Below are positions 7,629 to 8,983 of a stretch of 43,723 nt of DNA, in pieces. The notes beneath the pieces were generated by a model. That model saw only the letters and a program-made list of their open reading frames with translations. It had not been told where the DNA came from and ran no database searches. Location: assembly GCF_030382115.1 (NCBI RefSeq), contig NZ_JAUDRJ010000003.1, forward strand, positions 6,332,110-6,375,832, read 5' to 3'. A program made the position numbers and the translations under genes. The stretch is from Nostoc sp. GT001 (GTDB lineage: Bacteria; Cyanobacteriota; Cyanobacteriia; Cyanobacteriales; Nostocaceae). How positions within the stretch are numbered: position 1 is the first letter of the stretch; every line of letters begins with the position of its first letter.

Positions 7629-7977
7629 TGTTTTATGATTGCGGTTAGTTATTTATGAATCAGGCGGTAAGGTCTTTGCCTGTGAAACTACTTTACACTG
7701 CTTTACATTTTTTAATCAAGTTCTATTACTACAGTAAACCTGATACTAGTTATCAGGTTTGCTTATTTAAAAGCAAACAACGAGGCAGGAATAGACCAAA
7801 GTTATCTTTACATATCTGGTTATATGCCTCTTTAGAATTGGTGTCTGATTTATGTCTACTATTGCTGAATGGGATTAACCCTCTATTCGCGCAGCCTTTG
7901 GTAGAAAAGAGAACAAGAATAGTGCTTGTTACCAAGAGTCACCTTGCCACCGCATTGAGTAGCAGTTTAAAGACAAA
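7629..7977. other. psbA upstream region; otherwise no gene seen
   Basis: The psbA leader and promoter should lie in the first 150 bases, but I cannot place -35 and -10 boxes with confidence. A TGTAAAG-CAG-TGTAAAG direct repeat (minus strand) sits about 70 bases upstream of the psbA start. Two hairpins share an arm: AAACCTGATA/TATCAGGTTT at 7736-7760 and GTTTGCTT/AAGCAAAC just after. The remainder holds no convincing reading frame. Confidence 0.4.
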
Positions 7978-8134
7978 ATGAACTGCGATTGCCACCAATT
8001 ACGTCTGTTAACCAAATTGTACGAATTGTGAGACACCTTTCCCAATTCCCGCAGATTGGGCGCAAGGTGAATGCCCTCACTGCTTTTTACCTTTTAGTAC
8101 AATGGCGAAGCGTCAAAAAAAGCTTTCACAATAA
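7978..8134 (+). pseudogene. Frameshifted small zinc-ribbon protein fragment
   Basis: An ATG at 7978 opens MNCDCHQLRLLTKLYE and soon meets a stop, while the next frame continues from base 8027 as CETPFPIPADWAQGECPHC...KRQKKLSQ to a TAA at 8132. The second frame also shows CTNC before CPHC, an arrangement typical of a zinc ribbon. Together they look like one protein of about 52 residues broken by a one-base shift near 8026. I do not recognise the family. It lies immediately before an IS66 transposase remnant and the CRISPR-transposon remnant, so it may be old cargo. Coincidental open frames remain possible. Confidence 0.35.
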
Positions 8135-8146
8135 CCAGCGCTTTGG

Positions 8147-8302
8147 CTATTTGTCCAGGTTGAGGGCGTGGAACCAACAAATAATGCTGCTGAACGTGCT
8201 ATCCGTCCGGCGGTGATTTGGCGAAGGACTAGTTTTGGTTCTCAATCCCAAGCTGGTAGTACTTTTGTACAAAGTTTGACTCTGGTAGCTGCCCGCTTCT
8301 GA
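8147..8302 (+). pseudogene. IS66-family transposase, C-terminal remnant
   Basis: The frame reads LFVQVEGVEPTNNAAERAIR followed by PAVIWRRTSFGSQSQAG, the highly conserved C-terminal block of IS66-type transposases. Its final part, about TFVQSLTLVAARF, departs from the family and coincides with DNA that looks like tracrRNA sequence. An in-frame TAA at 8132 and the absence of the DDE core show that only the last 50 or so residues survive. The fusion suggests that an IS66 copy recombined into, or was joined by deletion to, the CRISPR-transposon sequence near base 8275. Confidence 0.75.
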
Positions 8303-8355
8303 TGCTGCTGTCGCAAGACAGGATAGGTGCGCTCCCTGCAATAAGGAGTAATGCT
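8276..8355 (+). ncRNA. Truncated tracrRNA-like segment of a type V-K CAST
   Basis: The segment contains CTCTGGTAGCTGCC, then GATGCTGCTGTC-GCAA-GACAG (hairpin at 8308-8321), GGATAGGTGCGCTCCC and GCAATAAGG. From memory this follows, almost base for base, the central part of the Cas12k tracrRNA of Scytonema hofmanni CAST. The upstream part is replaced by the IS66 remnant. The downstream part, where the pseudoknot and anti-repeat should be, is missing, because the sequence passes directly into a CRISPR repeat. The RNA is therefore probably non-functional. Confidence 0.8.
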
Positions 8356-8523
8356 TCCCGGCTAGGGGTGGGTTGAAGGTAGGAAGTGGAATATCTGCAT
8401 TTGGTTGAATCAGGGTTTCAAGAACTATCCCGGCTAGGGGTGGGTTGAAAGTATGGCTTGTCTTCACTGGGTATTTGAGTTTTAGAGTTTCAACAACCAT
8501 CCCGGCTAGGAGTGGATTAAGAA
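8343..8523 (+). CRISPR. Three-repeat CRISPR array, type V-K repeat
   Basis: Three 37-nt repeats at 8343-8379, 8415-8451 and 8487-8523 are separated by two spacers of exactly 35 nt (8380-8414 and 8452-8486). The middle repeat is the most complete, running from GTTTCAAGAACTATCCCGG to GGGTGGGTTGAAAG. The first repeat has lost its 5' third; the third keeps GTTTCAACAACCATCCCGG but is degenerate at the 3' end. The consensus is, as I recall, that of cyanobacterial Cas12k arrays. No cas gene is adjacent. Confidence 0.88.
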
Positions 8524-8527
8524 AAAT

Positions 8528-8581
8528 ATTTGAAGCATTAAAATTTTTTTGAGAGGGTTAAAAGGCGCACTTCGTTCGGGA
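8528..8581 (+). ncRNA. Delocalised homing crRNA: degenerate repeat plus 17-nt tRNA-matching spacer
   Basis: A 37-base stretch (8528-8564) keeps only the ends of the array repeat: TTT near its start and GAGGGTTAAAAG at its end. Directly after it, 8565-8581 reads GCGCACTTCGTTCGGGA, which is identical over all 17 bases to the sense strand of the tRNA-Pro gene (complement of 8809-8825). The match starts exactly at the repeat boundary and stops at base 8582. This is the layout of the short-spacer, displaced crRNAs that type V-K CASTs use to home to tRNA genes. Confidence 0.85.
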
Positions 8582-8643
8582 ATATTCCAACATTTGTGAG
8601 TATATTAGAGATGTGCTGGACTCAACTCCACTTACAAAGTCGT

Positions 8644-8765
8644 CGACATTAATTTGTTAACGAATGTCTGAGGTAAATCGGCGACATTAATTTGTGAAGA
8701 CGATATTTAAATCATTAATAACGACACTAATGTGTTAACGACGACAAATAAAGTGTTATTCGACA
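8644..8765. repeat. Transposon left end with TnsB-site-like repeats
   Basis: Related motifs recur at 8644-8663 (CGACATTAATTTGTTAACGA), 8682-8702, 8722-8746 and the terminal 27 bases 8739-8765. Read inwards on the minus strand, the end begins TGTCGAATAACAC and reaches TGTCGTCG at its 20th to 27th base, the same spacing as I remember for the ShCAST left end. Such repeats bind the transposase TnsB. Confidence 0.8.
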
Positions 8766-8773
8766 ATAATAAA

Positions 8774-8847
8774 TCGGGATGACTGGATTCGAACCAGCGG
8801 CCCCTTCGTCCCGAACGAAGTGCGCTACCAAGCTGCGCCACATCCCG
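8774..8847 (-). tRNA. tRNA-Pro (CGG)
   Basis: The minus strand forms a complete 74-nt cloverleaf: CGGGATG pairs with CATCCCG before discriminator A, the D arm contains GCGCAGCTTGGTAGCGC, the anticodon stem CTTCG/CGAAG holds loop TTCGGGA (anticodon CGG), and the T arm has CTGGTTCGAATCCAG. CCA is not encoded. It is the attachment site of the adjacent CRISPR-transposon remnant: the crRNA-matched protospacer is 8809-8825 with PAM GGTA at 8829-8826. Confidence 0.97.
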
Positions 8848-8983
8848 CCATAAAGATGGCATCGTAAATTAAGAATATCACAACCTGTACCAAATAGCAG
8901 AATTACATCTATATGCGATCGCTTCACTAAAGACTTTGCTTGCTAGGATTAAATTTGTATAACTCTAGTGGTAAAAGCGGATT

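Follow-up and report, generated by a model that had tools for sequence, protein, structure and literature searches.

The window, that is, the whole 43,723-nucleotide stretch of Nostoc sp. GT001 analysed here, carries a tRNA-Pro(CGG) gene directed at a transposon left end, and between that end and the DNA upstream of psbA lie a short guide, a CRISPR array and several gene fragments. The features, each with the evidence on which it was called, are as follows.

7922-8133, + strand: 3' end of tniQ, frameshifted, flanked directly by IS66 DNA and psbA DNA (comparison with relatives)
8135-8299, + strand: open frame encoding a C-terminal remnant of an IS66-family transposase and overlapping the tracrRNA piece at its 3' end (Pfam DDE_Tnp_IS66, E 3e-7; translation)
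8277-8356, + strand: internal 80-nt piece of a V-K tracrRNA, anti-repeat part deleted (96-97% identical to G122 and G141)
8356-8379, + strand: CRISPR repeat 1, 3' part, fused straight to the tracrRNA fragment (repeat search, alignment to relatives)
8415-8451, + strand: CRISPR repeat 2, intact, 37 nt (Rfam CRISPR-DR15, direct repeat)
8487-8523, + strand: CRISPR repeat 3, 3' end degenerate (Rfam CRISPR-DR15, direct repeat)
8553-8564, + strand: truncated repeat R* of the anchor crRNA (sequence)
8565-8581, + strand: anchor spacer, 17 nt (sequence, inverted repeat, recurrence in family genomes)
8640-8765, + strand: CAST left end with three direct repeats of about 20 nt (8644-8663, 8682-8701, 8722-8741), presumed TnsB sites, the terminus ending CGACA at 8765 (repeat search, comparison with relatives)
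8774-8847, − strand: tRNA-Pro(CGG), homing target, directed at the transposon end (ARAGORN, Rfam)
8809-8825, − strand: protospacer, 17 nt, in tRNA-Pro (exact inverted repeat with 8565-8581)
8826-8829, − strand: PAM, GGTA on the tRNA strand, GTN type (sequence)

Nothing else stands between psbA and the left end than what remains of tniQ, its broken 3' end, and of the IS66 transposase, the 80-nt tracrRNA piece, the three repeats and the anchor guide. A repeat search over the window returned a 17-nt inverted repeat, 100% complementary, with arms at 8565-8581 and 8809-8825, the second of which lies inside tRNA-Pro(CGG), such that the first is an exact copy of the tRNA sense strand. The guide-target match is thus real, and the first-pass annotation, which had read a displaced crRNA with a spacer matching tRNA-Pro at this position, is borne out in letters and coordinates. 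The degenerate repeat that it had placed before the spacer is GAGGGTTAAAAG, the 12 nt immediately 5' of the spacer (8553-8564) and a truncated V-K repeat; we likewise find the GTN PAM it had pointed to, as GGTA before the protospacer on the tRNA strand, the distance of 60 bp from PAM to transposon end, with the terminus CGACA/AATAA at 8765/8766, and the mismatch at the first base past the spacer (8582 A, C in the tRNA).

Cyanobacterial V-K CASTs, as described in section 6 of PMC9938897, have a tRNA directed at the left end, an R* of about 12 nt, an anchor spacer of usually 17 nt with its protospacer usually in the tRNA, a GTN PAM, and a PAM-to-left-end distance of 46-82 nt with one exception. 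The window holds R* with a 17-nt tRNA-matching spacer, a GTN PAM, an end at 60 bp and so inside that range, a left end faced by the tRNA, and an array, and the likeness to short delocalised spacers claimed at first pass agrees with the same section. The array is of V-K type with 37-nt repeats, given its two Rfam CRISPR-DR15 matches and its alignment to V-K arrays. The arrangement is shared with ShCAST, AnCAST and relatives (PMC9938897, section 6) in the orientation of the tRNA toward the left end, the 17-nt spacer, the R* of about 12 nt, the GTN PAM, the V-K repeats and the PAM-to-left-end spacing of 60 nt; the window locus differs from them as a remnant lacking Cas12k, TnsB, TnsC, the right end and a full tracrRNA. 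The locus is therefore of the published anchor (delocalised) homing crRNA type of V-K CASTs and is not new in kind. For the two array spacers, plasmid and phage searches turned up incomplete matches to spacer 1, of 24 nt (95.8% identical) and 20 nt (100%) in plasmids and of 25 nt (92%) in three Fusobacterium phages, and nothing for spacer 2.

Neither Cas12k nor TnsB nor TnsC was found near the tRNA-Pro site, where tniQ is present as its broken 3' end only, and the tracrRNA anti-repeat motif does not occur in 8150-8600; since the tracrRNA fragment passes directly into a CRISPR repeat, the anti-repeat is lost. Right-end-like termini number four in the window against 4.2 expected, which is not above chance, and on this ground an element with its own right end was rejected. 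The right flank is rearranged: 7629-7919 is DNA from upstream of psbA, which in G122, G134 and G136 lies on other contigs than tRNA-Pro, so that a rearrangement must have replaced the right flank, and in G122 the upstream neighbour of psbA is a different one (L130). With the right end and the 5-bp target-site duplication lost, the insertion is unreadable from both sides. A split CAST, its other half moved elsewhere in the genome, was rejected as well, the sole close TnsB, the sole TnsC and the sole other tniQ all belonging to a complete CAST. Judged by its sequence, the CAST at tRNA-Pro is dead, a remnant, and the loss of the remaining transposon had gone unmentioned at first pass. What had been put forward at first pass, RNA-guided homing by a type V-K CAST, holds for the origin of the locus, as the anchor crRNA and left end of a tRNA-Pro-homed CAST, and not for a present-day system, with Cas12k, TnsB, TnsC, right end and anti-repeat all missing. 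As a separate observation, the junction at 7919-7922, where psbA upstream DNA meets the tniQ fragment, places a rearrangement next to a photosystem gene.

The spacer-tRNA pair, which the first-pass annotation had suggested looking for in related genomes, recurs widely: the R*-spacer module (at most 2 mismatches) is present in 46 of 217 family genomes, at 49 places and in 19 of 56 genera (reversed control pattern, 0), among them 15 of the 53 genomes of the window's genus, and it adjoins its matching target in all nine genus flanks (of 30) that were found to hold it and in the 17 such systems of the R* set analysed below. These flanks of tRNA-Pro were compared for 30 of the 53 genomes. One of two left-end types lies within 45 bp of tRNA-Pro in 24 (13 and 11, respectively), at a PAM-to-end distance of 56-60 bp, and six flanks show neither type, two of these having another end-like sequence (G114, G147) and one a cas12k fragment at the tRNA (G129). 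The flanks of G108 and G143, taken as CAST-free, have no left end, and both genomes are without the module; in the material examined, the 17-nt match was thus not found shared by genomes lacking a CAST at this site, nor the guide DNA in empty sites. The stretch 8638-8860, comprising left end and tRNA, is 86-88% identical to the CASTs of G139, G133 and G136. By eye, Cas12k beside the module is intact in four of the 15 module-bearing genus genomes (G117, G133, G136, G139), broken, interrupted or partial in six (G118, G122, G125, G130, G135, G154), and absent nearby on the contig in five (G107, G128, G142, G151 and the window's own genome, G000). The four intact CASTs share with the window the same tRNA-Pro and the same 17-nt spacer and, unlike it, keep Cas12k beside the array; at this tRNA-Pro, G139 holds a complete counterpart with left end, array, tracrRNA, Cas12k, tniQ, tnsC, tnsB and an inverted terminus.

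Taken together, the locus is very probably what is left of a tRNA-Pro-homed type V-K CAST after decay. Going by the V-K literature and the anatomy above, Cas12k, tracrRNA and the anchor crRNA (R* and the 17-nt spacer) of the live ancestor would have bound the GTA-flanked tRNA-Pro protospacer, and TniQ, TnsC and TnsB would then have inserted the left end some 60 bp away, leaving the tRNA intact. Comparison with the CASTs of relatives shows that the right end, tnsB, tnsC, cas12k and most of tniQ and tracrRNA were later lost through deletions, an IS66 insertion and the rearrangement by which psbA came to adjoin the end of tniQ, in whatever order; the tniQ, IS66 and tracrRNA parts could have been joined by more than one route. 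The guide probably still matches because just 17 nt needed to survive and the tRNA hardly changes, and the remnant is now most likely inert.

That the 17-nt match arose instead by chance or as a tRNA-derived duplication, for example the attachment-site copy of an integrase, is extremely improbable. Although integration into tRNA genes is frequent (PMC11406308, section 3.4), the copy is inverted with respect to the tRNA, an orientation wrong for an attachment-site copy, which was rejected for this reason; it is also preceded by a CRISPR-type R*, and the module it belongs to is the one recurring across the family. Base composition predicts some 0.001 exact inverted repeats of 17 nt, their arms lying within 300 bp, for the whole window, and a chance match was rejected at this value. 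The genome does contain a complete type V-K CAST, at tRNA-Cys (G000 C3:5432142-5444403; L103, L104), which carries genes for TnsB, TnsC, TniQ and Cas12k and one that looks MerR-like by eye, besides a tracrRNA, a single array repeat and a 17-nt anchor spacer of its own. Its Cas12k, 0.9 Mb from the window locus, is the only one of the genome, and so is its TnsC; the close TnsB is also its own, the four other TnsB being 25-32% identical. This CAST might load the anchor or array crRNAs of the remnant onto its Cas12k and tracrRNA and so put the remnant to use in trans, and its anti-repeat indeed forms 8 contiguous pairs with window repeats 1 and 2, more than with the dead anchor guide. With the window R*, however, it forms only 5, repeat 3 is degenerate, and the remnant, without a right end, could not move itself. 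We regard use in trans as very unlikely, somewhat less so than a chance or duplicated match, and retain the decayed, tRNA-Pro-homed CAST as the reading of the locus.

The window locus is dead and belongs to a kind already known and found widely; the most interesting outcome of its analysis is a rule relating R* to the tracrRNA anti-repeat. Solved Cas12k structures exist, among them entries 7n3o, 7pla and 8ea3, and the segment termed anti-repeat is, we assume, the one that contacts the crRNA repeat in them. Anti-repeats, array repeats and R* were gathered from 180 loci (L094-L273, non-CAST stretches included), 80 of these being GTDB contigs obtained via Cas12k alignment. The anti-repeat pattern matched in 116 of the 180, giving 99 rows with R* and 18 anti-repeat sites without; 72 rows are distinct, and leaving out L100, L135, L143, L214 (spacer match 15/17) and L272 (no array) yields 67 systems, all with an array and a spacer match of at least 16/17. 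R* was chosen by the match of its spacer to the DNA beyond it and by a GT PAM, independently of the anti-repeat; the search motif roughly fixes pairs 1-4, and the free evidence is that of pairs 5-8. The pattern in its tightened form leaves out a supporting case, L244, and false anti-repeats in L102 and L253.

Over the 67 systems, R* forms on average 8.4 contiguous pairs with the anti-repeat and the commonest array repeat 5.4, the pairing of R* being longer in 58, equal in 2 and shorter in 7 (53, 9 and 5 if only Watson-Crick pairs count). Pair 6 is formed by R* alone in 60 of 67, by both in 4, by the array alone in 2 and by neither in 1. Where base 6 of the anti-repeat is A, R* has T (33/33), and where it is T, R* has A (31/34); individual array repeats are mispaired at this position in 297 of 336 cases. 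Systems with an anti-repeat other than AACCCTCCCC form pair 6 with R* throughout (62/62) and have it mispaired in the array in 58 of 62, whereas the five with AACCCTCCCC, presumably the ShCAST-like group, form it with R* in just two, three of the five breaking the rule. The seven with shorter contiguous pairing of R* are L144, L150, L172, L197, L211, L222 and L235, two of which (L150, L235) appear to have decayed, and the two with equal pairing are L212 and L221; as to pair 6, the exceptions are L144 and L172 (array alone), L212 (neither) and L197, L211, L221 and L222 (both).

The two partners also change together. Pairing holds in 96.3% of cells over the 34 distinct anti-repeat/R* states and in 87.8% after shuffling (0 of 500 shuffles as high), although the shuffles overstate independence, a tree of 53 Cas12k proteins giving only two independent pairs, one in the same direction and one without a difference. 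Changes occur on both sides in five of the eight pairs, and sliding the partner lowers pairing to 35-63%. The 25 anti-repeat/array states show no covariation (87.5% versus 89.2% shuffled), with pair 6 unpaired in 20 of 25. Compensated cases are AATCCACC/GGTGGATT in L211 (and, by the earlier pattern only, in L244), AATCTACC/GGTAGATT in L222 and AACCCATACC/GGTATGGGTT in L164. On the Cas12k tree base 6 changed twice in the anti-repeat, once in R* and five times in the array, so that the evidence from pair 6 rests on few events. In the window, the 5'-extended R* (8548-8559) complements, at 12 of 12 positions, the anti-repeat in the CASTs of G139, G136, G133 and G160 and forms 7 contiguous pairs with that of G122. 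To judge from these letters, the orphan R* looks like the fossil of an anti-repeat no longer present in the remnant and absent from the surviving CAST.

We see an even case for and against the proposal that in V-K CASTs guide priority is encoded in the repeat:anti-repeat duplex, R* being kept as the full complement and the array mismatched at pair 6, so that tracrRNA and Cas12k would favour the homing guide, of which device the window R* would be a fossil. A possible but more doubtful explanation is compensation, whereby an R* of about 12 nt pairs fully because the other contacts of the 37-nt repeat are lost, with no device to favour homing. The upstream part of the repeat is indeed missing from R* (PMC9938897), and a single pair accounts for most of the difference between R* and array; compensation alone, however, leaves the pair-6 mispairing of so many array repeats unexplained, though array base 6 did change those five times on the tree.

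A partial or truncated repeat with tRNA homing is described in the available text of PMC9938897, PMC11406308, PMC11656645, PMC8730458, PMC10949235 and PMC12719977, in which no mention of an anti-repeat complementarity of R* was found; PMC11656645 has the delocalised crRNA matching array repeats only partially and calls its origin unclear. The words anti-repeat and antirepeat are absent from PMC9938897, and searches of titles and abstracts did not return R*:anti-repeat complementarity. The primary accounts, Saito 2021 and Hsieh and Peters 2021, lie outside this comparison, and we claim no priority for the rule.

The locus captures a V-K CAST dying in place, its guide and left end outlasting the enzymes, and the rule, which can be put to the test, may explain what distinguishes the homing guide from other guides. 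A homing guide with a diverged repeat, distinct from the array guides, is a feature shared with type I-F3 CASTs, the guides of which are said to have been categorised by their atypical repeats by Petassi in 2020, a categorisation also mentioned in PMC11406308; there the effector is different and there is no tracrRNA, unlike in V-K, where the discriminator proposed here is the repeat:anti-repeat duplex. Section 3.4 of PMC11406308 poses as an open question why homing guides account for almost every natural V-K insertion when laboratory systems show high off-site targeting, and the comparison made here offers a concrete and cheap test of it. If pair 6 does set guide priority, better scaffolds than guide RNAs built on the array repeat should exist, and a single-base change could affect efficiency or the choice of pathway.

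Several further observations were made on the window and its relatives. Cross-use of the dead array (8356-8451) by the surviving CAST is conceivable, given 8 contiguous pairs there and 5 with R*. In G130 (C1:577057; L043, L116) the same 17-nt tRNA-Pro spacer stands beside the other left-end type, ending GTCGCTCTACA, so that one homing address is common to two left-end types. Upstream of tRNA-Pro in G126, G124 and G144 (L112, L113, L114) the V-K-type left end is directly adjoined by a long CRISPR array whose repeat, ATCGCAATCAAATAAAATCCCTATTAGGGATTGAAAC, is a different one, which looks like the outcome of a CAST collapsing onto an array of the host; the upstream stretch of G126 is found in the window's own genome at C3:5.85 Mb, where 13.5 kb hold no repeat of the G126 array and, in the ORF list inspected by eye, nothing recognised as CAST. 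Finally, G135 (C180:1548-3866) carries two parts of Cas12k in one 793-codon open frame with a gap between them, which may reflect an in-frame insertion into Cas12k.
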